Assembly (NCBI RefSeq): GCF_000150955.2
Contig: NC_011686.1
Location: 558,001 to 622,000, forward strand
Direction: 5' to 3'
Length of the DNA: 64,000 nucleotides
From: Phaeodactylum tricornutum CCAP 1055/1
Taxonomy: Eukaryota > Bacillariophyta > Bacillariophyceae > Surirellales > Neidiaceae
Below are positions 2,038 to 23,814 of this stretch, in pieces (within the stretch, counting starts at the first letter, position 1; each line of letters opens with the position of its first letter). The position numbers were made by a program, and so were the translations under genes. A model generated the notes under the pieces. The model did no database searches. It was not told the DNA's origin and saw nothing but the letters and a program-made list of their open reading frames with translations.

Positions 2038-3735
2038 TTACGGCCTGTTTCCACTGAAGTTTCCAACAGCCCCGGCAGCCATACGAGTAAGAACCCCCAA
2101 TGGATACGCTTCCGTTGAATCCGTGTGTGCTTGCTTCTGTTGAAGTTTGTCGCGGAGGAACGCTTCAATGGCTTGACGAACGTTTAAGGATTCAAACTCA
2201 ATACTGTCAGGATTCACTATGAGCTTTTTGTTCGATGATTGGATCTTTACTTTCTTGTTGTTCTTCGATTCGTGTGTGCCTGTCAAGTGGAACTCTTTCG
2301 GAGAAACCAGGGAACCCTGGAATGTATCGACGTGTCCGCCCTCACAACGGGGGATGACATACTCTTCGAGCGCCGATTTGCTTGTATGAATTACTTCACT
2401 GGCAATCAAGTATTGACACTGAACCTCATTGGACTGTTTTCGCCCAGTTATTCGCGGTGAATCGATTCCCGAATTTTTTTTCTGTGCTGTTGTTGCCCTG
2501 TCGGCTTGCAGGCTGGGTTCGTTTTCCTTGGTACTCGTATTTCCCCATGCAAACTCTACGGAGGGCGACAGCTCAGCGGCAGACGAATCAGCTTTCCACG
2601 TTTCAACATCATGCTCTAGGGATTCACGGCTAATAAGTGCTTGTGGTGAGAGTTGTAAGAAATCTCTTTCGCTTTGCTCTTGCCAATCTCGTCGCTTCAA
2701 TGAAAGTAGATGCCCAACGAATAAACTTTTTTCCCTGATCGCGCCAAAGAAGGGTGGGATAAAATCGAAGACCCACAAAAGCGTTCTACTAAACAGTCGT
2801 ACAAACTTTCCTAGGCCGCTGGCCGTCACAGACACATAAGCCGCTGACAGCGCTCCAAGGAAAGCCAAGTTCCAGGATGCACCACATGCCAATGCAGCTC
2901 CAGCACCAGATAGAGCAGCGAATTGAATCACACATCCCGGAACCCCTTTTTCGATGTCTGGGTCACCCCAAATGCTGTTGAAGATAGCCTGCATAAGGTG
3001 TCTCGCAGTAGAGCCAACCATTTGGAAGAAGTTGGGGATCGTTCGTTCTAAGTATCTATCTTGGTGTTGGTGTCGTTCCGGCCCAGCAGTGCCGAAAACA
3101 CGGATGATCTTCTCCAAATGTGGCTGTAGCCGCGTGTCGTCGCTGCACCTTATTGGTTCTCCAGTTGCCGTTTCTGGCACATCAAATCGGACTTCTTCGT
3201 GTTGGGTATTTGCTAGCTTGCCAAGCAGACTTTTCACAAACTGCGGGTTCTCTCCCGTTTTCATCCATAAACTTTCGCCAAATTGCCGGTTTTGTGACAC
3301 GGCGTCGGAAACCTTGCCCCAAGCGTTTTCTACTTGCCGTTGATAGCCCAGCGCTTTTTGAGAAAGTTGATTGGCCCAATCTTCCACACGCTGTAAAACA
3401 GCCGTTCCGGGTTGGGACCATGCATTCTCTAGCTCCCTCATGGTTGCTGCGAGAGTAGTAGAAGCATCAGTGTCAAACAGCCTTAGTGGGGGACTGTATT
3501 GAGGTGGTGAAGGATCCAGAAATCTCGTTTCCGCTTCACCAAAAGCATTTGCGGCAAAGGTAGGAGTTTTCCATCTCCGCGGACGAGCATCAGAATCCAT
3601 GCGGTGAGCTTGTTTCTGACACAGCGATTTTGTGGTCAAGGAAAAGCCACGCGCTTGCGAGGAGGCACAGCTGAAAACCGCGAAGTAAACAACGAGGCAG
3701 CGCCATGTTCTATGCAACACTGTCGAGTCGCTCAT
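2038..3735 (-). CDS. Plastid array paralog 1: paired-hydrophobic-module protein
   Basis: 565 residues. The N-terminus is a signal peptide (CLVVYFAVFSCASSQA) followed by RGFSLTTK, with Phe near the predicted cleavage point as in diatom ASAF plastid presequences. Residues about 80-200 are helical and polar. At about 258-330 lies the module shared by the whole array: DIEKGVPGCVIQFAALSGAG, a first hydrophobic stretch, then LGALSAAYVSVTASGLGKF and a second stretch LLWVFDFIPPFFG. The same EKGVP...AAY start occurs in the 18403-21933 protein. The C-terminal 200 residues are polar, Ser- and Lys-rich, without a known domain. The gene is the most downstream of five co-oriented relatives. Enzyme function is unlikely; a membrane-linked structural role in the plastid is inferred. 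Confidence 0.8.
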   Translation of the reverse strand: MSDSTVLHRTWRCLVVYFAVFSCASSQARGFSLTTKSLCQKQAHRMDSDARPRRWKTPTFAANAFGEAETRFLDPSPPQYSPPLRLFDTDASTTLAATMRELENAWSQPGTAVLQRVEDWANQLSQKALGYQRQVENAWGKVSDAVSQNRQFGESLWMKTGENPQFVKSLLGKLANTQHEEVRFDVPETATGEPIRCSDDTRLQPHLEKIIRVFGTAGPERHQHQDRYLERTIPNFFQMVGSTARHLMQAIFNSIWGDPDIEKGVPGCVIQFAALSGAGAALACGASWNLAFLGALSAAYVSVTASGLGKFVRLFSRTLLWVFDFIPPFFGAIREKSLFVGHLLSLKRRDWQEQSERDFLQLSPQALISRESLEHDVETWKADSSAAELSPSVEFAWGNTSTKENEPSLQADRATTAQKKNSGIDSPRITGRKQSNEVQCQYLIASEVIHTSKSALEEYVIPRCEGGHVDTFQGSLVSPKEFHLTGTHESKNNKKVKIQSSNKKLIVNPDSIEFESLNVRQAIEAFLRDKLQQKQAHTDSTEAYPLGVLTRMAAGAVGNFSGNRP

Positions 3736-4657
3736 GTTCGTGATGGAAAGAAAGTATGGTTAATATTCGGCCTTGCCAATGGTTCCCGTACTTGTGGCAT
3801 TCAATGTCGACACAACGAAATGGATCAAACCCAGCCGCAATTATTCAAAAACGCAAAATTTTAAACGGAGCTCTATTTAACATTGCCCCATGCTTAGACC
3901 CAACAAAGTACTTACTTAACTTTCGGCTTTATAGTTAATGACTGCCGTTATAAAGTTGGTTTGCAGTGGATTTCCAAAATGCTAAACATACCGAAATGTA
4001 AATGATTTTTTGCCGATAGCATAAGTTCCGGCTGGCATACGTTCTTTTGAAAAATCACGTCACAATTGCCGCGGGAGACATGCGTTTCCGGGGGAGGGGT
4101 GTGGGGGCTTCCACGAACCCTCACTTACATTGCAACTGATGGCGGACCGCAATATCCTTGACCCTGTTTTCGATGGCACCTTTTGGTTCGTGCCATTCCA
4201 CAATTGACTGTGAGCTGCACAGGATTTAAAAAGAAAATCCCGTAAACGTACCGAATAGCAATTTCACACCGTAGTTCGAGGATAAGGTTGTACACTTACA
4301 AACCCATTCCAGTATGCCGAAAAAAATACCATCTAGAGAAGGAAAGGCTTTCCTACGTACTTCTCGAAATCAATAGCTAGCTAGCTACAGAGCAAAGTCC
4401 CATTGCAAATATATAACTGACTACCCTATACAACAAACTATTATGTATACTTGTTCACGGGCGAGGCCCGTCGCGCTGTCCCAGCACGGCAGCGCAGTGC
4501 TGCGGTGCTTTGACACATTCAGTCGCCCGAGACGGACCTTGGCCTCTATCACGGACTGCACTAATCCCTACCTCGTATACTTACTCCATGACAGTGCCCT
4601 GCTTTGGCTTGACCCTTCGTTTCGTGTCACTCTCGTCGTTGCCATGTCAATTTTTCC
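3736..4657. other. Intergenic between array paralogs 1 and 2
   Basis: Promoter side of paralog 1 and 3' flank of paralog 2. It holds a G-rich patch near 4087-4110 and a short tagctagctag run near 4374-4387. No gene or RNA is recognised. Confidence 0.5.
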
Positions 4658-5875
4658 TCAATGAGCGTTCGTGCGACGACGCAAATCACTCAATTTGACT
4701 GATGTTTGTGCGGGCAGCGCTCGCACATCGTCCAAGGTACGGAGGAGACTACTGGAGGAAGTCCAACCTTGACGTTCGGCCTCCGAGGCGAGTTCGTAAA
4801 GGTGTGGACGGCTCTGGTCGCGCCAGGATGGAAACCGGTATTGCAGGGAAGATGTTGCCGCTTCCCATTCATCTCGCACCGAGACAAGTCGTTGATGAGC
4901 CTTGGCTCGGGCCCGGTCCATGCCGTCCGTAATGCGAATGCTGTGAACTTCATCATCCATATCTACCTTTCTGTACTGCCTCGGAATCGAGACGAATTTG
5001 TGCGAGGGTTCGATCGCCATGGTTGCCATCCAAGGGGTCGCATGCATGCTCCTGGTACCGACTCCAGGGCGAATCCAATTAATCTCTACCTTTTCTTGGG
5101 CTTGCCGAGTGACTTCCGTGAGTAGTGACCAAGCCCCACGGGTCGAGTGCTGCACGACGTTTGGGTCAAAGGGCACGGCTTCCAGGCTGTGGCGGGTTAC
5201 GCTGGAAAGGCCGTAGCCGACTTGGTAGAGGATGGCCGAGAGCGGATTGCGCGACAAGGGTTCGGGAAGGCCCGACAGGACGCCCACCATCAACCCGGCC
5301 ATACAGGCCCCTTGTGCGTCCATTGCCCCTGAGCCGAGGCACAGGACGGTGGTGCCCACCGCGGCTCCCCCGACGGCTTCGATCCACTCGGTGTAGGTAT
5401 CTTCAACCACCACGCTAGTGGGCGTGTCGGTCCGGGGGAACGAGTCAACCAACTCATGTTCCATCGATGCGTCGGTTCGATCGGCAAAGAATAAAGCGTC
5501 CAAACTCACATCCGTCTCTTTCAACGACACGAAGTCCAACGCAGTCCGAGTTTCCTTGGGGACAAGGAAAAACGGCAGCGATGGTTCCGTGGGAATCGGG
5601 ACACTCGGACCCAGGTCCACGACGGGACGCGCACTTACGGTTGATTCGACGCTACGGTGATCGTTACGGCCGCGGGAAGAAATAGTCGGGGACACGGAAC
5701 GTGTGGGACGACGAGACGAGGAGGAGAGACTGCGGGTTGCCGTAGTGCGGTGCGGGAGGGTGAGCGTCGCCGACATGCGCAAGTCCCACGCGTCACACCC
5801 AGTACCGACCAAACCGGCAATGGTGATCACCACCACCCGCGTAGTCGCCAGACGACGGTTCATCCAGGCCTTCAT
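4658..5875 (-). CDS. Plastid array paralog 2
   Basis: 405 residues from the ATG at 5875. An in-frame ATG at 5944 is possible, but the shorter start puts the signal peptide at the N-terminus. The presequence is MKAWMNRRLATTRVVVITIA... ending GTGCDAWDLRMS, with Trp near the cleavage point in place of Phe, a tolerated variant of the ASAF motif. A Ser/Arg/Thr-rich transit-like segment follows. It contains SLPFFLVPKETR, the FFLVPK motif shared with the giant paralog. A Gly/Ala-rich paired hydrophobic module (VGGAAVGTTVLCLGSGAMD, then GLMVGVLSGLPEPLSRN) lies at about residues 167-215, and the C-terminus is a charged helix rich in Arg, Glu and Ser. The family assignment rests on module order and neighbourhood because overall identity to the neighbours is low. 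No catalytic motif is seen. Confidence 0.78.
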   Translation of the reverse strand: MKAWMNRRLATTRVVVITIAGLVGTGCDAWDLRMSATLTLPHRTTATRSLSSSSRRPTRSVSPTISSRGRNDHRSVESTVSARPVVDLGPSVPIPTEPSLPFFLVPKETRTALDFVSLKETDVSLDALFFADRTDASMEHELVDSFPRTDTPTSVVVEDTYTEWIEAVGGAAVGTTVLCLGSGAMDAQGACMAGLMVGVLSGLPEPLSRNPLSAILYQVGYGLSSVTRHSLEAVPFDPNVVQHSTRGAWSLLTEVTRQAQEKVEINWIRPGVGTRSMHATPWMATMAIEPSHKFVSIPRQYRKVDMDDEVHSIRITDGMDRARAKAHQRLVSVRDEWEAATSSLQYRFPSWRDQSRPHLYELASEAERQGWTSSSSLLRTLDDVRALPAQTSVKLSDLRRRTNAH

Positions 5876-6513
5876 GGTTTCGTCGGGTCCAAATTGGTCG
5901 AACCGTGGTGTGATTTGGTACAGTACGGTATGATACGGCAACAATCAACGGTGAAATGGTATCCTGTATGCCGGACCGCTGCGGGGATCCAAATTTTCGA
6001 AATACGAACAACGTCAACGTGACGGGAAACCGTCAGACTTCCACTTAACGAAAGTCGTTTCCCACGACCATTTTGTTAAAGAACACGACACAATCTATTT
6101 TTCAACGTGACCAACCGTTTTTCCCAAAGAGGTACCGCGGTAGTCGGAGGAGACACAATTGTTGAATCCTCCACGAACGCTGACGTCCGAATCCGTTTCG
6201 GATTTCACATCAGTTGGTCCGCGAGTTACCCTGATCACGTGATTGCAGTGGGAAAACATAAGCCCTATCTTCAAGTCGGCCAAGCGATCGTATATCCTAC
6301 AACCAATTCCAGGGAGGCAAAGTGACTCGGCGCTGACTGAGGCGAATACACTACCCAGCTATCGTCGATTCGAGACTTTTTCTAGTGATGCTCCCAATGA
6401 CACAAGACAAACAAGCGTTGTCGTCGCATCTGACAGAATAAATTTTTTTTAACCTACATGTTTTACATATTTGTGTCCTTAGCAACCACTATGGGATTCT
6501 ACAATGGAACGAG
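5876..6513. other. Intergenic between paralogs 2 and 3
   Basis: Promoter side of paralog 2. A TGACGT half-CRE lies at 6181-6186, about 305 bp upstream of the chosen start. Nothing else is recognised. Confidence 0.45.
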
Positions 6514-8623
6514 CTACCGGAACGGTTGGTCCACGGGCCAGATTGTCCAGACGGGCTCACGGGGAATATTGTTGCTGGGTTCCGCCATCATTTCATCCGC
6601 CATCTCTAAAGGAACCGAGGTCTTGCTTTTGGCCTGAGGTACCTCGCGATCAACAGAGAGCAAGGCGTCTGTTTCAGCATTTGGAATCTTCTCTCTCCGT
6701 ACGTCATCCACCGGACTAGGATCGATTTGGTCTGTCACCGACTGGTATTCAGAGAGCAATTGCCGGTTTGGAGTGTTGTCAAACACCGGACCTTCCCTTA
6801 CCGGATGTGTCCCTTCGCTGTCGGTCCTGGGAGTCGGGGTACGGGTCGGTGCGCTCACCGCGATCAGATCGAGGTCTTCGGGGCTGGACGGTCGGGGCAG
6901 ACCAAGCTGTTGTTGGTCCAGGGTTTGGCTTGCCCCAGGCGCGTACATGGAAGAAATATCAATGCTGGGGATTGGCTGCAAAGACGAAATGTCGAAGCTA
7001 GGAATAGAGTCCGAGTCATCGACATTATGCTTGGAGTACGGCGAAATCGTATCGTCCATGTTGATGTTGTCGTTTTCCTGGTGCGACGGGACCGAGGCCA
7101 TACTGCCACTGTCTCGGGAAGAAGACTCGATTGTGTCGTCGGTATCTATCGCCATATGTGACGAGGAGACCCTTTTGTCACCTTTATTGTCCTGGGACGA
7201 GGAGACCGTGTCGTCGTCTTTAGTATGCTCGTCGGACCAAACCATCTCTGTGCTTTCGTCGTTCAAATGCGAGGACGAGACCGTGTGGTCCTTCCTATTG
7301 TTGTCCTGGTGCGGGGACGAGACCAAGGCCACATCACCGCTATCTTGGTAAGAAGATGCAATTTTGTCGTTGGAATCAATCTCCTCATGCGAAAAGACAG
7401 TGCCGTCATCTTTCATGTCCAGGTCCGACGAGATCGTGTCGCCGTAGTCACTCTCCTTATCAGGCAAGACCAGCTCCGTCTTTTCGTCGTCCTGGTACGA
7501 GGAGGAGACCAAGGCTACGTTGCCGCTGTCTTGGTTAGATGATGCAAGTTTGTCGTTGGTATCGACGTCCTCATGGAAAGAGACAGTGTCCTCATCTTTC
7601 ATGTCCTGGTCCGACGAGATTGTGTCACCGTAGCTACTCTCATTGCCAGGAAAGACCAATTCCGTTTTGTCGTCGTCCTGGTGCAATGATGAGACCACGG
7701 TGTCGTCGCTGCTTTCTGGATTGGACGCGACCGTACCGTTGGTATCAGTGTCGGTATCGAAATCGGCTCTGGATTCCATCGTAACGGACTCTCCCGACGT
7801 CCGCACGGATTCGGCCAATGTACGGATCGTCGTTTGGACGCGCCCTGAGGCGTGCAGATCCTGAATCGTCTGTATGGCTTGGGCCGTAAGATAATAGCAG
7901 AGTGTGCCACCGCGTCGAGCCATCGTCCCCGCCGCCCCGGGGCGCGTGGTCAGGTAGGCCGCGAGGCAGCCCAGTACACAGGACGTCGGGAGATCGATCC
8001 CACCCACTGATGCGCCGAGTGATGTCACCACTAGGAAGGCACCCGCCATGGATTCTTCCGTCGGGAGGCTCGGGTCCCACCGGGGGAGATTTTTGGAGGT
8101 GGGGATGGATTTCGGTTCGTCTCGAACGAACCAGAGACCGGCGTCGGGATCCACCCAAGTGGCCTGATCGGTCAAAGGACGGCGGTCCGTCTTGACGCTA
8201 TCGTCCTCGCTGATTGTATCAGTGTCGTCTGCCCAGTCGAGATCCACTTCTTTGGATACAGCGATAGCACCAAAACAAACGGAAGAATGAGTGTTAGTTG
8301 AGCTCACCGACCTTTCTACCAATGAACGCACGCATCTAAACACAAGCAAACGTACCACGACGTTCTGAGACGGGTCGAGCTACCGCATCGACCCACGTGG
8401 CGACTGGTTCCTCCAAGTGTACCGGTGAGCGACTCCACGGGGGAGGCGAGGACCAGGGCAGCGGATCCGGAAGGCGCGGAGGACGGGAGGCCAACGCCGT
8501 CACCGCACGGTGGGACGTCGCGACGGAAAACGACGCGGCAGGAGCAGCAAGGATCGATAGACACAGACTGCAGGCTTGCAGAGCCGCTGCTCTGGGAAGG
8601 ACCTCACGTACTTTCCAACGCAT
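6514..8623 (-). CDS. Plastid array paralog 3, two exons, Ser/Asp-rich repeats and SIDISS motifs
   Basis: Exon 1 is 8623-8356 and exon 2 is 8249-6514; the intron at 8355-8250 (106 bp) has a GTACGT donor and a CCAAAG acceptor, and the junction reads ERR-EVDLDWADD in frame. Product about 667 residues. Exon 1 encodes the signal peptide and a textbook ASAF site: CLSILAAPAASFSVATSHR. The paired hydrophobic module is at about 150-200 (AGAFLVVTSLGASVGGIDLP, then LGCLAAYLTTRPGAAG), aligning with LGAAYLAISPGSAG of paralog 5. A long acidic Ser/Asp/Thr region with VSSS-QD repeats follows, including a 186-bp direct repeat. Near the C-terminus are IPSFDISS and IPSIDISSMY, the motif repeated in the giant paralog. 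Without the exon 1 splice the signal peptide would be lost, which supports the two-exon model. Confidence 0.8.
7290..7690 (-). repeat. 186-bp direct repeat inside paralog 3
   Basis: Two diverged copies of a 186-bp (62-codon) unit in phase with the reading frame; for example the phrase starting accaattccg at 7655 recurs as accagctccg at 7469. Each copy encodes ESxYGDTISSDxDMKD and DSGxVALVSS. Outer limits are approximate because flanking units are more degenerate. Confidence 0.7.
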
Positions 8624-9184
8624 GCTGACTAGCGAAACTGGGGAAGAGTGAGAATGAGAATATGCTCTCAATGAAGATTTTGGTGTAGGCGACGACGAAG
8701 GATGCGTTGGGCGAATAGGTAGGTGGTTACAGGAAGCTAGTAGGACCGACGAGACCGAGACACGAAAGCTCCAATCCCCCTCCCCTGTGTTTCATGCATG
8801 CCGGATGGTCTTCGAAAACGAGCAGAAGTAGAGAAAAGGTGTGTCTTTCCCACATTCCTTTGGCGTTGTGTATCCCTTTTTGTCATTATCACTATTGAAA
8901 GATCTCGATTCAAACCGCGGAAAAGTGTCACTCGTCGCGAACGCGCCTTCCAAACATGTCCAAACAACCCGATCGTGCTCCGACGAATCAAAACCCTACC
9001 GGAACCCAAGTTACTTACCTACCCACGGCACCACGCATCGAACTAAAGTAGACTGGTCCAGCGGTAGGTACGAAAGAAAAATAACCCGCATCCAATACAT
9101 TCACCAACGCCAATACTAAGAATAATATACACACACATATCTTACATATAGATACTTGCCCCGCACGGTTGTCCATCGCATTCT
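8624..9184. other. Intergenic between paralogs 3 and 4
   Basis: Promoter side of paralog 3 and 3' flank of the giant paralog, with a short alternating purine-pyrimidine (acacacata) tract near 9129-9150. No gene is seen. Confidence 0.5.
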
Positions 9185-12100: not shown

Positions 12101-15100
12101 CAAGTCGTCTAGTGGAGACAGTGCCTCCTGCCACTCTCGCTGCTGGAGACGGGCAACAAGCAAGCTACGGGGGTTACGTTCCGCAACGGACTTGCGCCGC
12201 CTTTTTCGTTCTTCGCTTTCCAACCTGATCCGGAATTCTAATAGTGCGCGGGAGCGTTGTTCAGCCTTCACCGATTTGGGTACCAAAAAGAAAAGCTGTT
12301 CCATCAAATCTATCGCTGGTAGTGTCTTAGGGACTGTCGTGAATGATTGAGCCTCGGGCAGTAGGATTGGAGCCTTGATAGTCTGCCTTCGGGCTCGCAA
12401 CTCGAGGCGGGCAGCCAGCAAACAGCGAGCGTTTCGTTCCGCAACGCGTTCGCGCCGGCGTTCTCGGTCAGCAGCTTCCAACTCAAAACGGTATTCCATC
12501 AACGAGCGGGTGCGTCGTTCGGCCTTCACCGATTTTGGGACAAGAAAGAAGAGCTCAGAGTGGTCCCAAACGAGCAACACACGTGGTGGAGGATTTTTCG
12601 GAGGGGTTGGGATGCGGCGCTGGAATGGAGCGAGTGCAGCAAACTCGTTAGCCGAGTCCCGTGCCCAAACGGCTAAATCACTTCGTCCGAAGTCGATGAG
12701 CTCGTACACGGCAATACTCCAGCCACGAACTAGATCGCCCTGCCAGCCTGTGGTAACAGAAAGGTATGATGCCCCTGTAGCCAACCACATGGACGTCCAC
12801 AGATCATTACGTTGAAGGACGAAAGACCAGGTAAATGTAGAAAAAACAGCGCTTTGAATGATATAGCCCGGGACGTCCTTCCGTAGCGGCTCTCCGGCAA
12901 CTGAAGGCAGGATTTGTTCGAACAACCGCTGAGCAATTGGTTGCGCCTCGAAATATTGGTTGCGTTGAGTATTGCGCCGAACCGGAAAAGCGACTTGCGC
13001 CCCACTATCCTCCTGGCTTATTGAGGCTGCGGATTTTTCGTCCTCAAGAATCGACCTATTCACGGAAACCAGCGTCGAAGCTTCGGCCTTCCACACGCTA
13101 GCCGAATTTGAACTGGCTCTCTTTTCGTTTCCCAATGACTCTCCAACAGCATCAGATTTATCATCGGACATGAGTGTCACATTCTCCCTAGTAAGTCCTT
13201 GACTTTTTTGCAAGAACGCGTGGGTCCAGGCCTTGTCGTATTCCACAGATGAAACGAGATCGATCAAGAATTTCTGGGTGCGCTCGTAACTTTCAGCCAG
13301 TCGACCCGTGACGGCTTCGAGATGACAACGAAAATTACCGACCCGCAGTAAGGCACCCCACTTCCATTTGGAGAGCGTTGTTGTGCTAACCTTTGCGTCT
13401 CGGGAAGTGCCCTGCCACGAGAGCGGTGCGGAATCATTTAAGCTCGGCCTCTGTCGGACCTGCTTGGGCAGCAATAATCCATCCGTCAGTTCGACGGACA
13501 CGTCTCCGACTGCATTCGGTTCGGAGACATATACAGATGAGACGTTTATACTCAGAATATCATCCATGGTTGTTTCGTCGTCCGGTAACCCAGCACCTTC
13601 TAGGTTCTCGTTCCAGGAGACTGAGACCAGCGGCCTCTGCGGATCAGTCACACTTCGTACCCAATCTTTCCTAGTGTTGGTGGAGACCTTACGGGTAGAG
13701 ATGCATTCCGGCTGGTTTTCAGGCGATTGTCGTAAAACTTCTCGTATCGCACTCGACTCAGATTCGAATATGGACGAGACGTTGATACTCGGAATCTCAT
13801 CTATGTTTGGTTCGTCGTCATCATAGTTCGGCGACCCAGCACCTCCTCGGTCCTCGTCCAAAAATGACGGCCCCTGCGGATCAGTCACATTTCTATCCCC
13901 TCCTTGCGTAGCATTGGTGAGAACCTCACAGATCCCGCTGGACTTCGTCTGAAACTTAGACAATTGTTGGACTTGTATCGCACTCGGCTCGGATACCAAT
14001 ATGGACGAGATGTTGATACCCGGAATGTCATCTGCGATTGCCTCGCCGTCATCGTCGTCAGGCGACCCAGCACCTCCTTGACTTTCGTTCAAAGACTCCA
14101 AGATGATCATCTCCTCCGGCTCACTCACGCTTCGATCATCTCCTTGCGTGGTGCTAGGAAAGGCCCCAGAGAGACCGCTGGCCTTCGTCTGAGAGTAAAG
14201 CGATTGTTGCAAACTTTTTGAAACTTGCGCCTCACGATATCCAACTTGATCAGAGAGCATGTCAAATCGGTTGGAAAAATTCAAAGCGCGCTGTCGGTAG
14301 CTCCGAAACTGCAGCTTGCCACTAGTTGATCGGTGCGCGATTTCATCGGAAAGCTGTTCTAACTGTAGGCCAGCCTCGCTGCTGGCATCCTCTTCGCGGC
14401 ATCCATTCTTAGTGGAAACGGGCTCAACCGCTACTCCGGCGGATATATCTAGGACTGAACGTTGGTGGCGGGCATACAAGGGGGAAACATCGATGCTTGG
14501 GACAAGGAAAAAAGGGCGCTCGTCGCTGCCGCTGTTAAGCAAACCCGGAATAATTCTATCCTCGCTCGATGCTTGAGCACCGACAGCTCGCTGCCGATTC
14601 GTCATCTTTTGGCCCCACAATTCCTGCCCACTCTTTGCAACATTGGTCCATGCGTCCGACAGACGACTGGCCAAGGCAGGGAGCTGCGGGGATTCTCGTA
14701 GATCCTTAGCGGCTTGCGCTGCTCGACTACCAACTTCCTCCGACACGCTGTGAATTTGGCGGAGACTATCACCAATACTCTGCGACTCCATCTCTTCCGA
14801 CAGACGCTCCGTCACCTTTTGAACTTGTTCTTGCATTTTACCCAACCCTGCAATCACTTCCCCCGAATACCGGGATTTTAAGCTCACTGTCAGTGTATTC
14901 TCAGTATTCTCAGCCGAGACCAGACTGGGCACGAGGGCCGCTTCTGTGTGGCTCTGTTTCGGAGAGCGATCGCTCTTGGCTAGACTAGCCTCCTCCACGG
15001 ATCCGTCGGGCATAGCATGGTCCATATCTTGTTGTTTGGATGCGTACAGAGAAGAAACGTCGATACTCGGGACCAGGAAAAATGGGCGCTCGTCGTCATT

Positions 15101-17818
15101 GTTGCTGGGTACCTCCGTAACACTACCATCCTCGCTGGATACTGGCGCACGGACAGCTTCCTGCCGGTTCGTCATCTTTTGGTCCCACACTTCCTGTCTA
15201 CTCTTTGCCACATTGGTCCATGCGTCCGACAGACGACTGGCCAAGGCGGGGAGCTGCGGAGATTCTCGTAGATCCTTGGCGGCTTGCGCGGCACGACTAC
15301 CAACTTTTTCCGACACGCTGTGGATTCGGCGGAGACTATCACCAATACTCTGCGACTCCATCTCTTCCGACAGACGCTCCGTCACCTTTTGAACTTGTTC
15401 TTGCATTTTACCCAACCCTGCAATCACTTCCCCCGAATACCGGGATTTTGCGCTCACTGTCAGTGTATTCTCAGTATTCTCAGCCGAGACCAGACTGGGC
15501 ACGAGGGCCGCTTCTGTGTGGCTCTGCTTCGCAGAGCGATCGCTCTTGGCTAGACTAGCCTCCTCCACGGATCCGTCGGGCATAGCATGGTCCATATTTT
15601 GTTGTTTGGATGCATACAGAGAAGAAACGTCGATACTCGGGACCAGGAAAAATGGGCGCTCGTCGTCATTGTTGCTGGGTACCTCCGTAACACTACCATC
15701 CTCGCTGGATACTGGCGCACGGACAGCTTCCTGCCGGTTCGTCATCTTTTGGTCCCACACTTCCTGTCTACTCTTTGCCACATTGGTCCATGCGTCCGAC
15801 AGACGACTGGCCAATGCGGGGAGCTGCGGGGACTCTCGTAGATCCTTGGCGATTTGCGCGGCACGACTACCAACTTTTTCCGACACGCTGTGAATTTGGC
15901 GGAGACTATCACCAATACTCTGCGACTCCATCTCTTCCGACAGACGCTCCGTCACCTTTTGAACTTGTTCTTGCATTTTACCCAACCCTGCAATCACTTC
16001 CCCCGAATACCGGGATTTTAAGCTCACTGTCAGTGTATTCTCAGTATTCTCAGCCGAGACCAGACTGGGCACGAGGGCCGCTTCTGTGTGGCTCTGCTTC
16101 GCAGAGCGATCGCTCTTGGCTAGACTAGCCTCCTCCACGGATCCGTCGGGCACAGCATGGTCCATATCTTGTTGTTTGGATGCGTACAGAGAAGAAACGT
16201 CGATACTCGGGACCAGGAAAAATGGGCGCTCGTCGTCATTGTTGCTGGGTACCTCCGTAACACTACCATCCTCGCTGGATACTGGCGCACGGACAGCTTC
16301 CTGCCGGTTCGTCATCTTTTGGTCCCAGACCTCCTGTCTACTCTTTGCCACATTGGTCCATGCGTCCGACAGACGACTGGCCAATGCGGGGAGCTGCGGG
16401 GACTCTCGTAGATCCTTGGCGATTTGCGCGGCACGACTACCAACTTTTTCCGACACGCTGTGAATTTGGCGGAGACTATCACCAATACTCTGCGACTCCA
16501 TCTCTTCCGACAGACGCTCCGTCACCTTTTGAACTTGTTCTTGCATTTTACCCAACCCTGCAATCACTTCCCCCGAATACCGGGATTTTAAGCTCACTGT
16601 CAGTGTATTCTCAGTATTCTCAGCCGAGACCAGACTGGGCACGAGGGCCGCTTCTGTGTGGCTCTGCTTCGGAAAACGACCGCTCTTGGCTAGACCACTA
16701 GCCTCCTCCACGGATCCGTCGGGCATAGCATGGTCCATATTTTGTTGTTTGGATGCGTACAGAGAAGAAACGTCGATACTGGGTAACAGGAAAAATGGAC
16801 GCTCGTCGTCATTGTTGCTGGGTACCTCTGTAACACTACCATCCTCGCTGGATACTGGCGCACGGACAGCTTCCTGCCGGTTCGTCATCTTTTGGTCCCA
16901 GACCTCCTGTCTACTCTTTGCCACATTGGTCCATGCGTCCGACAGACGACTGGCCAATGCGGGGAGCTGCGGAGATTCTCGTAGATCCTTGGCGGCTTGC
17001 GCGGCACGACTACCAACTTTTTCCGACAAACTGTGGATTCGGCGGAGACTATCACCAATACTCTGCGACTCCATCTCTTCCGACAGACGCTCCGTCACCT
17101 TTTGAACTTGTTCTGGCGCTATACTCTTACCTTTCAGTTCTTGTTCCGGTGACTTGGGACGTGCCAGTGCATTCTCCATGGAAACCGGCTTGAGCACGAG
17201 TGCCGCCTCGTTGTTGTTGTTGTTGTTGATTGGCCGTTGCCGACTTGGAACAACGGGACTTGGTTCTGTTTCAGCCCGCACGGGAGTTTGCGGGGACGCG
17301 TCCACGGAAGCAACGTCGTCGTCGTCCAAGGGAGGATTGGCGGAGACTGCCGCCGGCGGGAGTGGGGTGGTGGGGAGCCGTGGTGTTACGCCCGTGCGGC
17401 GCACCGTGTCGGTGGCAACCCACGTCGTCGCATCGGACGGGCGATCGTCAAAGGTCTGGGGTGCGACGATTGTCCACGCACCCGGGACCGTTGTGGTGAG
17501 GGGGTCGGCGGGAGTCGACCGAGATTCCGCCACGGAGGAACGTTCCCACCAAGGGTTGGCGTCGGGAGGTGCTCGAGTCCATCCGGGATCGTCGGGTGGG
17601 ATCGCGTGGTACCGACGCGACGGACGGTGGGATCGTGATCGTATCGACGACAGGGATTCCGGCACCAAGGCGGTGACTGTTCCGAACGAGACAGTGTGGG
17701 AACCATTCTCGTACGACCGACAACCGTTGTAGTAGTAGTAGTAGTAGCCACACCAACAACAGTACCAGCAATAGCAACACCACAAGGGTGCCAGATTCGT
17801 CACGACGCACCGTTTCAT
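9185..17818 (-). CDS. Plastid array paralog 4: giant repeat and coiled-coil protein (2877 aa)
   Basis: One exon of 2877 codons. N-terminus: MKRCVVTNLAPLWCCYCWYC, a Tyr run coded by a triplet microsatellite, then SHTVSFGTVTA, which may be an ASAF-like site. Residues about 230-1100 hold five roughly 190-residue repeats. Each contains QVQKVTERLSEEMESQSIGD, a helix, and DERPFFLVPSIDVSSLY (near residues 337, 528, 718, 908 and 1098). Older degenerate units follow (PGINISS, PSINVSS, LSINVSS). The paired hydrophobic module is at about 1643-1698 (RKDVPGYIIQSAVFST, then ATGASYLSVTTGWQGDL). Two FFLVPKSVKAE modules at about 1754 and 1836 each run into a basic helix with RNxRxLLxARL. A very long Lys/Glu/Gln/Ala coiled coil spans about 1950-2650. 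No enzyme domain is seen. A multivalent plastid scaffold or linker fits the architecture (inference). Confidence 0.82.
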   Translation of the reverse strand: MKRCVVTNLAPLWCCYCWYCCWCGYYYYYYNGCRSYENGSHTVSFGTVTALVPESLSSIRSRSHRPSRRYHAIPPDDPGWTRAPPDANPWWERSSVAESRSTPADPLTTTVPGAWTIVAPQTFDDRPSDATTWVATDTVRRTGVTPRLPTTPLPPAAVSANPPLDDDDVASVDASPQTPVRAETEPSPVVPSRQRPINNNNNNEAALVLKPVSMENALARPKSPEQELKGKSIAPEQVQKVTERLSEEMESQSIGDSLRRIHSLSEKVGSRAAQAAKDLRESPQLPALASRLSDAWTNVAKSRQEVWDQKMTNRQEAVRAPVSSEDGSVTEVPSNNDDERPFFLLPSIDVSSLYASKQQNMDHAMPDGSVEEASGLAKSGRFPKQSHTEAALVPSLVSAENTENTLTVSLKSRYSGEVIAGLGKMQEQVQKVTERLSEEMESQSIGDSLRQIHSVSEKVGSRAAQIAKDLRESPQLPALASRLSDAWTNVAKSRQEVWDQKMTNRQEAVRAPVSSEDGSVTEVPSNNDDERPFFLVPSIDVSSLYASKQQDMDHAVPDGSVEEASLAKSDRSAKQSHTEAALVPSLVSAENTENTLTVSLKSRYSGEVIAGLGKMQEQVQKVTERLSEEMESQSIGDSLRQIHSVSEKVGSRAAQIAKDLRESPQLPALASRLSDAWTNVAKSRQEVWDQKMTNRQEAVRAPVSSEDGSVTEVPSNNDDERPFFLVPSIDVSSLYASKQQNMDHAMPDGSVEEASLAKSDRSAKQSHTEAALVPSLVSAENTENTLTVSAKSRYSGEVIAGLGKMQEQVQKVTERLSEEMESQSIGDSLRRIHSVSEKVGSRAAQAAKDLRESPQLPALASRLSDAWTNVAKSRQEVWDQKMTNRQEAVRAPVSSEDGSVTEVPSNNDDERPFFLVPSIDVSSLYASKQQDMDHAMPDGSVEEASLAKSDRSPKQSHTEAALVPSLVSAENTENTLTVSLKSRYSGEVIAGLGKMQEQVQKVTERLSEEMESQSIGDSLRQIHSVSEEVGSRAAQAAKDLRESPQLPALASRLSDAWTNVAKSGQELWGQKMTNRQRAVGAQASSEDRIIPGLLNSGSDERPFFLVPSIDVSPLYARHQRSVLDISAGVAVEPVSTKNGCREEDASSEAGLQLEQLSDEIAHRSTSGKLQFRSYRQRALNFSNRFDMLSDQVGYREAQVSKSLQQSLYSQTKASGLSGAFPSTTQGDDRSVSEPEEMIILESLNESQGGAGSPDDDDGEAIADDIPGINISSILVSEPSAIQVQQLSKFQTKSSGICEVLTNATQGGDRNVTDPQGPSFLDEDRGGAGSPNYDDDEPNIDEIPSINVSSIFESESSAIREVLRQSPENQPECISTRKVSTNTRKDWVRSVTDPQRPLVSVSWNENLEGAGLPDDETTMDDILSINVSSVYVSEPNAVGDVSVELTDGLLLPKQVRQRPSLNDSAPLSWQGTSRDAKVSTTTLSKWKWGALLRVGNFRCHLEAVTGRLAESYERTQKFLIDLVSSVEYDKAWTHAFLQKSQGLTRENVTLMSDDKSDAVGESLGNEKRASSNSASVWKAEASTLVSVNRSILEDEKSAASISQEDSGAQVAFPVRRNTQRNQYFEAQPIAQRLFEQILPSVAGEPLRKDVPGYIIQSAVFSTFTWSFVLQRNDLWTSMWLATGASYLSVTTGWQGDLVRGWSIAVYELIDFGRSDLAVWARDSANEFAALAPFQRRIPTPPKNPPPRVLLVWDHSELFFLVPKSVKAERRTRSLMEYRFELEAADRERRRERVAERNARCLLAARLELRARRQTIKAPILLPEAQSFTTVPKTLPAIDLMEQLFFLVPKSVKAEQRSRALLEFRIRLESEERKRRRKSVAERNPRSLLVARLQQREWQEALSPLDDLPSLPNSTAHIESEVGEIVVVQKTLGSERKKRVREVNNTAKLFEYYREQLKALEGRVLAGIRQQSICKQERTQRALLESRLKFHATQRKMAGSGRSQRRLIQEQQARADQARAANMAWWAEENRAWQNAGPEWHAQLAADARQDRRIQEAQAVDRVRLTEKVTSQFESNRIDQEKRLAREACNTDEWTVTDEARVAVADRPAREDRAAKRKKQSKAQLNTKIAAEAQRVKETRSEQKAKQQEAELPQKISRELPSQQNSKQQNAQKAEEAKRARKLVSEQKGKQQEAQLAHKAEEAKRVQEILSGQKAKQHKLELVEKAVEAKHVHDIRSEQQVKQRKFELAQKAAEEQDQRNLDKSGMEDKRREKLSSEQKEKQRKGQKAEKAKLVQDVLSEQEAKQEAWLAQKADEAKRVQEILSGQKAKQRKLELAQKVAEAQREQDIRSEQKAKQRQLELDKRAIEAKHVRDIISNQKTKQRQLELAQKEADARREQGIRSEQKAKQLQQELDQKAADAKRVQAALSEQKTKQREAQRGGASRQRKKQQRGEVKRIEENRSIVWATLLEKARAGQEGTRKNAETKLKVEATRVPPEEVLTDNQRKILKAKKVEEERIVKQALLAEEKRIAERERKKKQARLIEEQRNAELTAERERKAEQARLAEEKRNDKVAAEQQLLLERAAKAEELRRKEEHEAQATQAAERRKREEVRVDNVKAHVAAGQAKEESLRVARKQRIATEHAEEQRVLIAALEEETRLQEEAKRKRIADEEERRQLVQAPRQQRMDGSGEKPLEADHPRVISDTFAVQSVPSKADKDSLAAELPADEVIDLVAGSVPAGVKGVNPDGTEEASRDNENGIVRGFEEDSRQAMHHFKDNETRLALEEPESTKSRVVSEDASPAVWVPKATRSQDETFVDIFTYSKPREGGRNSAILEMKDTRAAPQRARQAAQLFVTLALSRPAIFRAAAAARQSSGQA
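14480..17180 (-). repeat. 570-bp coding tandem repeats in paralog 4
   Basis: About 4.7 units with a period of exactly 570 bp (190 codons). The same phrases, for example cagccgagaccagactgggc, recur at about 14910, 15480, 16050 and 16620. Inner units are nearly identical over hundreds of bases, while the outermost ones (14480-14900 and 16680-17180) are more diverged, the pattern left by unequal exchange. The period keeps the reading frame, so copy number can change without breaking the protein. Confidence 0.93.
17207..17229. repeat. GTT triplet microsatellite, codes poly-Asn
   Basis: About six GTT units, read on the minus strand as a run of Asn codons (INNNNNNEAAL) in paralog 4. Confidence 0.85.
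17729..17748. repeat. TAG/CTA triplet microsatellite in the signal-peptide region of paralog 4
   Basis: Six TAG units, read in frame on the minus strand as six Tyr codons within the putative signal peptide. Another frame would read them as poly-Leu, but it has no ATG. Confidence 0.85.
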
Positions 17819-18402
17819 CCCGAAGGTACGATTCTCTCACTGTACACCCGAACAACGTCGGACTCGTCACGGAGCTTGGATTGGGAAAAGGAAGATCTCT
17901 TTCGGGACGACGAGTGAATTCTCACCCAATGCACCTGCACACACACCCCTCTCCGTGCGACCAAACCTAGCGGGAACGACAAACCTACACACCCACACGA
18001 ACCATACACATTTTGGAGTGGCGGGAAAGGCAAACGGGCGCGGCCGTCGGCACGCAATTCCTTACCAAGGATTTACGGTACGAAATTGTCGGGACACACA
18101 CCCCGGGGATGATGCATTGAGTATCCATTCAAATCCGTCGGCGCGACGTTCGCGCCCAGAATCACGTCTCACTAGGAGGGTGCGCCGCACGGGACGACAA
18201 ACCGGTCGGCGTGTGTCCGCGCCCGTCGGCGAGTCCCGGATGGATCCGTTCCCGAAACAGAGACCGGGAGAGACTCCCCGAAGGTTTTCTACCGATTTCT
18301 CACAGTCCAAAAGACCTTTTTGGTCGAGGTGACGCACACACCTTCGTTACTTTCCCTATGCGCGACCAGAGAAACCTATATACTATAGATAGAACACGCA
18401 GT
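17819..18402. other. Intergenic between paralogs 4 and 5
   Basis: Promoter side of the giant paralog. Short open frames occur, but none begins with ATG and keeps a signal peptide. GTGAGAAT near 17920 could act as a splice donor for an unseen leader exon; this cannot be settled from sequence. Confidence 0.4.
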
Positions 18403-21400
18403 CTACACTTGGTCGGAAGCCGTCAACTTGGCAATCAAATCGGCCTTGTTTCCACTCAACGGTAGCCCTCGTTGTCGGAGTTCGTCCTTTAGTTCCGCCA
18501 GAGTCAGGCTGCCGTAGTCTGTGGCGGACGAAAGCAGCGGTTCCTTCTCAATCTCCAAGAGATCTTCGTCGCTCGGCTCTTCCACCGACTCGAATCGCTT
18601 CACCGCCTCGCGCGCAGCCCGCGCCACTGCGGCCATGTCCAAATCTCCCAGACCACCCACGCGGTCCTCGCGGTCCAGTTGCGCAATCTCCCGTTCCAAG
18701 TCACGATCCGAGGCCTGTAAGGACGCCACCAGATCCCCTTTTCTCCCCACCGTGGGTAATCCGCGGTTGTCCAACTCGATGCGCAGTTCTGTTGGACTCA
18801 GTCGCGACCAGTCGGTGCTGGGTTCCGGCAGAACGCCTTCGCGATCCACAGAGGCACGAGCCGCCGCCGCCAACGCCTCCCTATCAGCACCGTTCGCATG
18901 GAGCAAATCATTCAACAAATCGTCTTCGGAAAGCTCATCGTCGTAGTCATGGTTTACAGTAAACACGTGTTCGTTACTGGACAAGTTGTCCACGTCTTTC
19001 TCTTCCTCCGCGTTCCCATCTAGCTCACGGTCCGCTGATTCCAGTGCGACCACGAGATCCGCCTTCTTTCCAACCGTTGGTAGTCCTCTCTTGTCCAACT
19101 CAGTCCTCAGTTGGGCAACCGTCAATTTAGACCAATCCCGACCTAGAGACGTGACTGGCTTTTCCATTTCAAGCACAGCCTCGGCAGTGGCAGCCAGAGT
19201 CTCCAGATCCGACCCTCTGCCACCAAATAAACTATCCAAGTCTGCTTCCTTGTCGTCCGCCGCTCCAACCAACGTTGTTGCATCGTATTCGAACGAGCCG
19301 TATTCTTCCTCTTCTTCGTCATCGTCCATTACAGCGGCGGACTCTTGGTCAAGATCAGACTGGGCGAGTGCGGCAATCAAGTCGGTCTTCTTTCCAACCG
19401 TGGGCAAACCACGCATCGTAAGCTCGTTACGCAAATCGACCATTTTAAATTGAGACCAATCCGTGGTAGACCCATGAATAACATCTGTGTTGAACAGATC
19501 TTCCTGGTCTCGTACAGCGGCGCGGGCAGCAGCGGCCAAAGCAGCCAAGTCCTCCATGGGAGGCAGGATATCATCCAAGTTTTCGTCGTCGTCGTCATCC
19601 TCTTCGAACGTGAACGCTGTATCGTCTTCGAACTCCATTATGCCATACTCGTCTTCCACCTCGAGCAATTCCTTCTCTTCTGCCATGACTGGACCAGACC
19701 CTTCACTTTGGACACCCGCTGACGAAGAAATTTCGCCGTTCGACAAAGCCAAATCTGCCGCCTCCAAGGCGGCCACTAGTTCCATCTTTTTGCCAATAGC
19801 AGGCAATCCACGCGTGCTCAATTCGTTTCGTAGATCGGCAACTCTGTAACTGGCCCAGTCTCGCAAAGATGATTCCGACCAAGATTCTCTTTCCGTCTCG
19901 CCAGTAGATTCAGCGTCGTATCGTTCCACGGCCTGGCGTGCTGCCTGAGCCAACGCTTCCATATCGAAACCCTCGTTGTCGAAGAACATATCCAGGTTGT
20001 TTTCGTCGTCATCCTCAGCTCCTTCGTCCTCAACAACTTCCTGGGCCCACGTTTCGCGCTCGACGGCTTTCTCTTGGATCTTGGCATTCATGTTTAGTTC
20101 CATAGCTTCGACCGCTTCGCGCGCCGCTTTGCCCAGGTCCTCTCGTTCACTTGGACTAAGTTCTTCAGCCAATAGCTTGGCGGCCTCCCAACTCGCTTTC
20201 GATTCAGTCTCATCAGTGTCTTGCTCCTCATCGTCCGAGCCAACAATAGTACCATCGATGCTTTTCTGAGCGGCAAGAATTGAAGCTGCCCAATCTTCCT
20301 CGGAAAAACCAACTTCGTCAAAGACTGAAGAGGCTTCGGTTTCAAACACGGCTTCCGTCGGTGTTTCGGCCTCAGGTATCTCCAGCACTGTGGCTTGCTG
20401 TGCTTCGAGCGCGACCCGTTGAGCTTCGGCCGTTACCTGGGCTTCTCGGGCCAGTCGAGATTCTTCTTCCTGAGCAGCGACCCTGGCCTTGATTTTAGCG
20501 ACACGTGCTTCTTCTGCCAGTCGGGATTGTTCGGCTTCCTCCGCTAGACGAGCTTCTTCCGCGATACGTGCTTCTTCCGCAACTTTGGCTTCTGCCATTC
20601 GCCGGGTTTCTTCGGCGATGCGTGCTTCTTCCGCAAGCCGAGCTTCCTCCGCAAGTTTGACTTCTTCTGCGAGCCGAGCTTCTTCCGCCAACCGAGCTTC
20701 CTCCGCAAGACGTGCTTGCTCTACAATAATACGTTCCTTAAGGGCTGTCTCCAACGACAATCGCGCCGCTAGCAATCCCCGGGAAGCTTGTTCCTTTCGC
20801 TGCTTGAGTCGTTTTTGCGACGCGGTCTGTTCCAACTCGATACGGTACGATAGCAACGCGCGATTGACGCGGTCGTCCTTTGTCTTTGCGGGAGCAACCA
20901 CCGGTGTGTCCGCTTTCGGAACAATTTGGTCTTTCTCGGCAAAAGCAAATGTGGGCGAAGCCTCGTCACTCTCGGTTGAACCAGTATCGTTAGTAATCGT
21001 CACGTCGATCGCGTCCGCCTTGTCCCGTGCGATCGCGTTGTTGCTGGCACTGCTTCCGCTCTGGTAAGATTTTTGTTGCAGAAGAAATTGGGTTTGTTGC
21101 GCCGCCGCGGAAAGGCGGTGGAGCAATCCCACGGTGGTTTCCCCAATGTGTTCGGGGCCAATCTTTTTCACCACGTCGACAAAGACTTCGGTGGAAGACC
21201 AGGCCGAGGTACCAATGGCTCGGACGGCATCTCCGGCGCTGCCGGGTGAAATAGCGAGATAGGCGGCGCCGAGAGCCGCCGCCCCGGAAAGAACAATGCT
21301 GTTTCCGGCCAAATAGCTGAGTGTTGCGGCCGTTAACGCGGCGCCTTTGATAGCGTCGGCCGGTACACCCTTTTCTACTTCGGTAGTAGTGAAGGGATGG

Positions 21401-21933
21401 ACGAAGACTTCTTGAGCCAGCGTTTTGGCGGCCTTTTGGACTAGACGATCCGGTGTATTGTCGAGGTCGTCTAAGGCGAGGCGCTCCACAAGGGCGGCCT
21501 TTTTACCAGATACCTGTAGTTTACGAACGGAAAGCTCGGCTTTCAGTGCCTTGACGGTGCACTCTTGCCAATGGTCGTAGCGTGACTGTAAGAAACCTTG
21601 ACGGGGTGAAAGACGAGACTCCTCGTCCGTTTCTTCGTCCAAAAGCGCAGTCCCACCATTGCGTAGAAAGAAGGGCTCGTATTCTTCGTGCAGCGATCGG
21701 AGACGATCAATCGACGGTGCACGCTTCGGTGGGCGTGGTGTCTTGAGCGAAACGGAGGAAGGGAAATCCTGGCTATTTTCCGGAGCCATGCGCAGTGGGG
21801 AAGCAGTTGTCAGCAAGTTGATGCGGAATGAGGCGGGCCCTGCCAAGGCTTCAGTTTCGGACAGTAGCAGGAGGCTGCCAACGACGCCTACCAGCACACA
21901 TGTTGGTACGATAATCATGAACGATCTTCCCAT
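18403..21933 (-). CDS. Plastid array paralog 5: six SAP-like motifs, membrane module and coiled coil
   Basis: 1176 residues, single exon. Signal peptide MGRSFMIIVPTCVLVGVVGS followed by ALAGPASFRINLL, a clear ASAF site. A first SAP-like helix pair is at about 119-150 (TVKALKAELSVRKLQVSGKK). The paired hydrophobic module is at about 181-250 (VEKGVPADAIKGAALTAA, then LGAAYLAISPGSAG). A basic helix RALLSYRIELE...RGLLAARL matches the RNxRxLLxARL helices of paralog 4. An EEARLAEEARL coiled coil spans about 398-500. Five more SAP motifs lie at about 692, 824, 931, 1038 and 1138, each close to DWSxLTVAxLRxELxxRGLP, then GKKADLVxALxxxD, spaced by acidic linkers. SAP motifs usually bind DNA or RNA, so a membrane-linked plastid nucleic-acid tether is a reasonable inference. 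Confidence 0.85.
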   Translation of the reverse strand: MGRSFMIIVPTCVLVGVVGSLLLLSETEALAGPASFRINLLTTASPLRMAPENSQDFPSSVSLKTPRPPKRAPSIDRLRSLHEEYEPFFLRNGGTALLDEETDEESRLSPRQGFLQSRYDHWQECTVKALKAELSVRKLQVSGKKAALVERLALDDLDNTPDRLVQKAAKTLAQEVFVHPFTTTEVEKGVPADAIKGAALTAATLSYLAGNSIVLSGAAALGAAYLAISPGSAGDAVRAIGTSAWSSTEVFVDVVKKIGPEHIGETTVGLLHRLSAAAQQTQFLLQQKSYQSGSSASNNAIARDKADAIDVTITNDTGSTESDEASPTFAFAEKDQIVPKADTPVVAPAKTKDDRVNRALLSYRIELEQTASQKRLKQRKEQASRGLLAARLSLETALKERIIVEQARLAEEARLAEEARLAEEVKLAEEARLAEEARIAEETRRMAEAKVAEEARIAEEARLAEEAEQSRLAEEARVAKIKARVAAQEEESRLAREAQVTAEAQRVALEAQQATVLEIPEAETPTEAVFETEASSVFDEVGFSEEDWAASILAAQKSIDGTIVGSDDEEQDTDETESKASWEAAKLLAEELSPSEREDLGKAAREAVEAMELNMNAKIQEKAVERETWAQEVVEDEGAEDDDENNLDMFFDNEGFDMEALAQAARQAVERYDAESTGETERESWSESSLRDWASYRVADLRNELSTRGLPAIGKKMELVAALEAADLALSNGEISSSAGVQSEGSGPVMAEEKELLEVEDEYGIMEFEDDTAFTFEEDDDDDENLDDILPPMEDLAALAAAARAAVRDQEDLFNTDVIHGSTTDWSQFKMVDLRNELTMRGLPTVGKKTDLIAALAQSDLDQESAAVMDDDEEEEEYGSFEYDATTLVGAADDKEADLDSLFGGRGSDLETLAATAEAVLEMEKPVTSLGRDWSKLTVAQLRTELDKRGLPTVGKKADLVVALESADRELDGNAEEEKDVDNLSSNEHVFTVNHDYDDELSEDDLLNDLLHANGADREALAAAARASVDREGVLPEPSTDWSRLSPTELRIELDNRGLPTVGRKGDLVASLQASDRDLEREIAQLDREDRVGGLGDLDMAAVARAAREAVKRFESVEEPSDEDLLEIEKEPLLSSATDYGSLTLAELKDELRQRGLPLSGNKADLIAKLTASDQV

Positions 21934-23651: not shown

Positions 23652-23814
23652 TCGTGGTGAACCATAAAGTCGATCGGGGCTTCGACTACCGATCGTTTTA
23701 TAAGTGCACCAGTCAGTACCCAGCTGGTTGGAGGATAAATTCGTTGGCATTCACGGCCAGTACCCGGATTTTCGGAGTTGGTCGAATAGAAGAAGACAGT
23801 CTAACCATCGAGGC

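Follow-up and report, generated by a model that had tools for sequence, protein, structure and literature searches.

What joins five adjacent genes of the diatom Phaeodactylum tricornutum CCAP 1055/1, and what might their products do in the cell? The genes lie in the 64,000-nucleotide stretch of contig NC_011686.1 (positions 558,001 to 622,000) analysed here and called the window below. As an earlier note on this DNA had reported, five consecutive long open reading frames (ORFs), all in the same orientation, occupy its minus strand at 2038-21933. On the basis of their domains, repeats and short motifs, we propose that they may form a tandem family of nucleus-encoded, plastid-targeted tethers that would hold a nucleoid or related body against a membrane, a reading to which we give a probability of roughly one in three. 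The genes follow one another along the minus strand in the order g5, g3, g4, g2, g1, the numbers being labels only:

18403..21933, minus strand: g5, 1176 amino acids; SAP domain 1, module, RxLL block, coiled-coil-like stretch and five units of an AAR helix plus a SAP domain
9185..17818, minus strand: g3, 2877 amino acids in a single ORF; reading frame tentative over its first ~50 codons
6514..8623, minus strand: g4, whole model, 667 amino acids, one predicted intron
4658..5875, minus strand: g2, 405 amino acids; signal plus transit-like peptide, FFLVPK motif, module-like stretch
2038..3735, minus strand: g1, 565 amino acids; signal plus transit-like peptide, N-terminal part, module, C-terminal part

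A module shared within the cluster

The feature common to most of the cluster is a Gly/Ala-rich two-helix module of about 110 residues, with one such stretch per protein:

21115..21450, minus strand: g5 module, residues 162-273
12620..12955, minus strand: g3 module, residues 1622-1733
7795..8082, minus strand: g4 module, residues 146-241
5153..5407, minus strand: module-like hydrophobic pair of g2, of doubtful homology
2692..3027, minus strand: g1 module, residues 237-348, with the core EKGVPG...AAYVSVTASGLGKFVR

We compared 120-residue stretches around the hydrophobic pairs by Smith-Waterman alignment, using 500 composition-preserving shuffles for each pair. Four pairs were never equalled by their shuffles (0/500 each), namely g1-g5 (z 15.5), g3-g5 (z 12.8), g1-g3 (z 11.4) and g4-g5 (z 7.9), with observed scores of 71-102 against 25-41 for reversed sequences. 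The g2-g4 pair was weak (z 4.1, p 0.006, score 52 against 40 reversed), as was g4-g3 (z 3.5, p 0.006), and the other four of the ten pairs (g1-g2, g1-g4, g2-g3 and g2-g5) were at chance level in this shuffle test. In a held-out test, a hidden Markov model (HMM) built from the other four modules (rows of 85-112 residues) was run against the 884 stop-to-stop ORFs of the window. It recovered g5 (E value 7.4e-7), g1 (1.4e-6) and g3 (2.2e-4), the next ORF standing at 0.8 or more; g4 was recovered marginally (0.043, next ORF 1.4), and g2 was not recovered at E<10. A profile of g5, g1 and g3 found g4 at E 0.048 among the same ORFs, g2 being absent from its results at E<=50. When aligned by hhalign, this profile gave P 0.0018 with g4, but a probability of only 14.9%, and P 0.53 with g2.

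Taken together, these comparisons of sequence make module homology among g1, g3 and g5 certain in our judgement, and the g4 module likely belongs with them, on moderate support. The case for g2 comes from its position and one weak pair, and the profile tests give it no support. The view that one module is shared by all five genes therefore stands for g1, g3 and g5 and moderately for g4, and falls for g2, the only gene whose module failed to align in the held-out HMM and hhalign tests. Serial duplication followed by fast divergence, also put forward in the earlier note, is retained for the same three genes and moderately for g4; g2 enters it only through its FFLVPK motif, its position and the one weak pair.

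Six SAP domains in g5

The protein encoded by g5 matches SAP (PF02037) in Pfam at E 1e-56, scoring 188 bits where the cut-off is 23.9, over six stretches, the first ahead of the module and the other five within the C-terminal half:

21466..21573, minus strand: SAP domain 1, preceding the module
19753..19860, minus strand: SAP domain 2
19354..19461, minus strand: SAP domain 3
19030..19137, minus strand: SAP domain 4
18706..18813, minus strand: SAP domain 5
18412..18519, minus strand: SAP domain 6

The SAP pattern L..L..EL..R.L...G(K/R/N)K..L is kept, with GKK at the turn in four of the six domains and GRK and GNK in the others. Ahead of each C-terminal SAP domain stands an Ala-rich, AxAAR-like stretch, which reads LAATAEAV in one case; the linkers are acidic, and so is the protein overall (isoelectric point, pI, 4.4). 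Six of the seven matches listed for g5 among PDB sequences were of SAP type (THO1, MKL1, E1B-AP5 and Hcc-1), all weak (E 0.025-0.42); these are chains that we take to handle DNA or RNA. Only SAP reached the Pfam cut-off among the matches of these proteins, and NCBIfam returned only matches far below cut-off for g1, g2, part of g4 and g5. Because six SAP domains match Pfam, the earlier statement that no known family fits was wrong for g5, and it held up for the module in Pfam, PDB sequences and folds. The SAP domains were absent from that note, as were five 190-residue units of g3, four of them nearly identical and one diverged. The SAP domains of g5 lend weight to the nucleoid among the sub-compartments that the note had suggested, and nothing directly favours the pyrenoid or the girdle lamella.

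Repeats in g3 and motifs shared outside the module

Outside the module, the genes are connected by repeats and short motifs located as follows:

20704..20871, minus strand: g5 RxLL block (RALLSYRIELE...RGLLAARLSLE), z 8.8 to the g3 block
14375..17110, minus strand: g3, five ~190-residue repeat units, each a helical hairpin plus a linker with FFL(V/L)PSIDVS(S/P)LYA
11819..12550, minus strand: g3, two FFLVPK plus RxLLxxR blocks and one further RxLL, very basic
9719..11641, minus strand: g3, long basic coiled-coil-like region with 26-residue repeats
6940..7005, minus strand: g4 motifs IPSFDISS and IPSIDISSMYA
5555..5572, minus strand: g2 FFLVPK motif, within the 45-mer compared with g3

The g3 units are 190-191 residues long and start at residues 237, 428, 618, 808 and 998. 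Between neighbours among units 2-4, DNA identity is 97%, the first and last unit pairs reaching 59 and 48% when compared without gaps. Over 151 residues, the identities of units 1, 3, 4 and 5 to unit 2 are 94, 99, 97 and 69%, from which four units appear to be young or homogenised and the fifth to have diverged. AlphaFold2 predicted two long helices for a unit (2-45 and 49-83), forming a block with a predicted local distance difference test score (pLDDT) of 70-89, and the FFLVPSIDVSS motif falls in a low-confidence linker (overall pLDDT 65, predicted template modelling score, pTM, 0.26). Sub-cut-off matches of g3 to Ntox4, UXS1_N, YopE_N and Put_DNA-bind_N, all in the repeat region, were set aside as an effect of helical composition. 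Downstream of its module, g3 is strongly basic, with a pI of 10.7 over the block-bearing region and then 9.8 over the coiled-coil-like one; repeats of 78 bases (26 residues) lie at 10755-11310 in the latter. By a crude composition measure, coiled-coil-like stretches occur in g3 and g5 only, fewer members than the earlier note had implied for its long coiled coils.

The FFLVPK motif is common to g2 and g3 (45-mer z 6.3, 0/1000 shuffles), g4 IPSIDISSMYA scores 48 against g3 VPSIDVSSLYA (best of 300 shuffles 30), and a helix block located after the module in both g3 and g5 scores 93 (best of 60 shuffles 56). Among the twelve best of the remaining outside-module pairs, z did not exceed 2.7. Each motif joins one pair of genes only: FFLVP is found in g2 and g3, PSI(D/N)(V/I)SS in g3 and g4, and RxLL blocks in g3 and g5, g1 having none of the three. 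Loose patterns of the three motifs gave two instances elsewhere in the window, one each in two short ORFs among the 884. The mobile pieces that the earlier note had assigned to the members are thus shared pairwise, more narrowly than it had proposed. We rejected a PFFL stretch of g5 as a further FFLVPK copy, since it gave p 0.12, 0.57 and 0.77 against the FFLVPK stretches of g2 and g3; comparison with the g3 repeat stretch yielded p 0.046, and the bare motif reached p 0.007. All five genes are thus linked, though by different pieces.

Predicted plastid targeting

The ASAFind rule, as summarised in PMC4329603, calls for a signal peptide followed by F, W, Y or L at position +1 of the transit peptide. 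We assessed the five leaders by hand; a slash marks the site. Aromatic +1 sites are found in g1 (ARG/FSL, after residue 30), g2 (CDA/WDL) and g4 (AAS/FSV), whose leaders are basic, with 0-2 acidic residues in 20. The start of g5 is strongly hydrophobic and offers a PAS/F site with P at -3, or alternatively TEA/L, and g3 has a TVS/F site after residue 44 and an odd start. Where four or five signal peptides with such sites had been claimed, we read clear bipartite-like plastid leaders in g1, g2 and g4, a likely one in g5 and a doubtful one in g3.

Predicted structure of the module and database comparisons

The AlphaFold2 model of the module, computed from five rows, has a mean pLDDT of 72.8 (core ~86) and a pTM of 0.58. 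It begins with an N-terminal helix (2-15), continues with a pair of short ones (31-47, 52-67) and ends in a long C-terminal helix (71-97); the short pair and the helix after it could lie as a shallow hairpin within a single leaflet. Kyte-Doolittle means for helices 1 and 2 are 1.4/1.6 in g1, 1.3/1.3 in g2, 1.1/0.9 in g4, 0.7/1.9 in g5 and 0.5/0.7 in g3. Small-xxx-small spacings number 5-7 per helix in g1 and g5, and 1 in helix 1 of g3.

Several candidate identities for the module were tried and rejected. In a Pfam scan of the five modules at E<=10, in which HMMER filters drop most matches above 0.1, the only match was YobH to one module (0.27). No match appeared to CAAD, which we take to be the domain of CURT1/CAAD-type thylakoid-curving proteins. 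The best matches among PDB sequences, PsaK (E 0.33) and a subtilase (E 0.084), were both at chance level. When the predicted fold was compared by Foldseek, 32 matches at E<=10 were returned from the PDB (best 3.4) and 76 from viral models (best 1.7), none in either collection at E<=0.001. Relatives of the module profile were absent from viral contigs and prokaryote genomes, g5 had no relatives in prokaryote genomes, and g3 had neither relatives in viral contigs nor a DNA match in plasmids; these searches are silent on diatoms. Similar Gly/Ala hairpins may occur in other ochrophyte algae. A literature search returned no paper in which we recognised these genes. Neither the module nor the cluster was matched in the collections searched (viruses, prokaryotes, plasmids, Pfam and PDB), but since no eukaryotic collection was among them, the family cannot be called undescribed.

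Gene models and neighbouring genes

The gaps between the genes, in minus-strand order from g5 to g1, measure 584, 561, 638 and 922 bases. They contain no ORF of at least 120 amino acids; ATG-started ORFs of 60-82 amino acids are present in the three gaps examined at finer scale. The listed ORF of g4 begins too late, and we modelled the gene as follows:

8356..8623, minus strand: g4 exon 1, signal peptide, AAS/FSVA
8250..8355, minus strand: g4 predicted intron, 106 bases, GT..AG, GTACGTTT..ATCCAAAG
6514..8249, minus strand: g4 exon 2

The added exon and intron supply the leader MRWKVREVLPRAAALQACSLCLSILAAPAAS/FSVA and appear to be needed because the signal peptide is gained only with them; the intron was picked by its donor and acceptor signals from many frame-keeping options. 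The given frame of g3 starts with a Cys/Tyr/Trp run. At 17724-17783 (minus strand), the next frame encodes VVLLLLVLLLVWLLLLLLQR, a Leu/Val core like that of a signal peptide with no in-frame ATG upstream, and for this reason the start model of g3 is probably wrong somehow, whether in its start, an intron or an indel.

The cluster has a G+C content of 53.8%, against 48.3% in the rest of the window; an overall G+C of 50%, the scarcity of introns and the leaders with aromatic +1 sites are in keeping with a diatom. The acidic Ser/Asp-rich arm of g4 contains, at 7303-7697, a 186-base repeat in about two copies. ARAGORN placed a tRNA-Gly at 4994-5077 (plus strand), opposite g2, which we judged a chance match, and an Rfam scan of the window at gathering thresholds found nothing. 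Next to the cluster, at 22836-23750 (minus strand), lies a gene for a protein whose sole match is a sub-threshold one to HNH endonuclease (E 0.57). Farther on are a protein with an adenylate/guanylate cyclase catalytic domain (25732-28152, plus strand), a UPF0014 permease, presumably FetB/STAR2-like, fused to an ABC ATPase domain in one protein (32643-34589, minus strand), and a single protein with trehalose-phosphate synthase (GT20) and trehalose-phosphatase domains (35793-38660, minus strand).

A possible tether family of the diatom plastid

Module homology, SAP domains, repeats and shared motifs are directly supported; from there we infer a membrane seat, a plastid location, DNA binding and a pairing of g3 with g5. 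The proposed family would work with one anchor and many arms. The shared module would form a short hairpin of helices, followed by an amphipathic one, and sit in the stromal face of the thylakoid or inner envelope; it would fix each protein at a plastid membrane, and the arms would have different binding targets. These arms do differ, being six SAP domains with a coiled-coil-like stretch in g5, repeats with a basic coiled-coil-like region in g3, and others in g1, g2 and g4. The six-SAP array of g5 would grip plastid DNA, or else nucleic acid belonging to the transcription apparatus. The coiled coil of g5 and the RxLL helices that it shares with g3 would join the two proteins, and the repeated FFLVPSIDVSS of g3 would bring in many copies of one partner from the stroma. 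In this way g5, and perhaps g3, may tie plastid DNA to a plastid membrane, MFP1-like in working.

Precedents for such an arrangement come from land plants. MFP1 is described as thylakoid-anchored, with a stromal coiled coil, and as positioning starch-granule initiation (PMC10801857), and a published list of nucleoid proteins gives both MFP1 and PEND as nucleoid anchors, PEND for dicots only and MFP1 for angiosperms (PMC4154389). The likeness to MFP1 would lie in plastid targeting, a membrane anchor near the N-terminus, a long stromal coiled coil and a proposed role as nucleoid anchor. By description, MFP1 differs in having a twin-arginine translocation (Tat) signal and a short transmembrane domain, with no SAP domain named in the sections of PMC10801857 drawn on here, whereas the present proteins have a two-helix module and form a tandem family. 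The coiled-coil-like regions of g3 and g5 are recognised by composition only, and the anchor is weakly hydrophobic. PEND likewise tethers the nucleoid to a plastid membrane, but is described as using a bZIP domain (PMC4154389). For g5, the nearest likeness is pTAC3/PAP1, a plastid protein that carries a SAP domain (PMC4080259) and is listed with an acidic pI of 4.6 (9.6 in brackets) (PMC4154389); g5 is likewise acidic and, compared by description, differs in its six SAP domains, module and coiled-coil-like stretch. By analogy, the family might work like MFP1 or PEND, membership in either family not being implied. We would class it with the plastid membrane tethers, as a variant of these and no new category.

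Several observations weigh against the tether reading. The module is weakly hydrophobic, least so in g3, with means above 1.2 on both helices only in g1 and g2. Apparent insertion energies, summed on an approximate scale without position terms, lie above zero for each of the ten helices (1.3 to 11.4), and the predicted helices, at 17 and 16 residues, would hardly suffice to span a membrane fully. The membrane link suggested in the earlier note is plausible, with the weak hydrophobicity counting against it. Moreover, the SAP region of g5 is very acidic (pI 4.06), which sits badly with simple DNA binding; g1, g2, g3 and g4 (the last scanned from an internal ATG at 8049) gave no SAP match at E<=1, and the plastid leader of g3 is the doubtful one.

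Some of these points would also suit other explanations. The low hydrophobicity of g3 and of helix 1 in g5, the positive insertion sums and the short helices would fit a soluble stromal condensate scaffold, in which the module is an Ala-rich, oligomerising helical bundle with no membrane anchor. The g1 and g2 helices are moderately hydrophobic, however, and small-xxx-small spacings, frequent in g1 and g5 though not in helix 1 of g3, are a partial argument for packed membrane helices, which leaves this explanation unlikely if quite conceivable. We place in the same range a plastid membrane scaffold without a nucleic-acid role, whose SAP domains would be protein-binding helices and whose members would shape or link thylakoids or girdle lamella: the acidity of the SAP region, the module hairpin with its following helix and the four genes without a SAP match (g4 scanned in part) favour it, but the six SAP domains retain their G(K/R/N)K turn. 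The SAP domains of g5 and the precedent of pTAC3 (PMC4154389, PMC4080259) would also allow a plastid transcription or RNA factor with neighbours serving other ends; the module homology joining g5 to g1, g3 and g4 speaks against this, and we find it very unlikely. Secreted or cell-wall proteins, finally, would account for the signal peptides and low-complexity arms, for a composition rich in small and charged residues and for the lack of a textbook plastid site in g3 and g5, but scarcely for F or W at +1 and basic, acid-poor leaders in g1, g2 and g4, nor for SAP domains, and we give this explanation hardly any credence.

The main named rival, drawn by analogy, is a role in the pyrenoid, where g3 would be a multivalent linker of a Rubisco scaffold with FFLVPSIDVSS as its stickers, and the module proteins would be tubule tethers sharing the motif. 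The motif does occur once per g3 unit, in the low-confidence linkers after the helices, and parts of it recur in g2 (FFLVPK) and g4 (PSIDISSMYA). According to the accounts drawn on here, Chlamydomonas EPYC1 and RBMP1/2 share one Rubisco-binding motif (PMC10473226) and PYCO1, a diatom protein, is built of repeats and carries stickers (PMC10288592); the likeness would be that of a repeat protein and a short motif common to membrane-linked partners. Against this, the KWSP and GTGYNP motifs of PYCO1 are absent from all five proteins (0 in each), the likeness to linkers of the EPYC1/PYCO1 type is one of repeat and motif architecture, the SAP domains of g5 are left unexplained, and nothing ties the motif to Rubisco; we consider a pyrenoid role unlikely.

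The tether family may also be given a more far-reaching form, which we regard as rather improbable: a scaffold of the diatom plastid, specific to its lineage and linking membrane to nucleoid, whose parts arose by tandem duplication. In it, a new hairpin anchor, a DNA gripper with six SAP domains and a linker of 2,877 residues with an FFLVPSIDVSS address code would build the ring nucleoid or a neighbouring body on a membrane.

To our knowledge, the placement of DNA, pyrenoid and lamellae in complex-plastid algae is poorly understood. A tandem gene set with a common anchor and arms that vary, among them those of a six-SAP protein, would offer definite genes, domains and motifs to tag or delete, and the PSI(D/N)(V/I)SS motif (peptide FFLVPSIDVSSLYA) would provide a concrete bait for a stromal partner.

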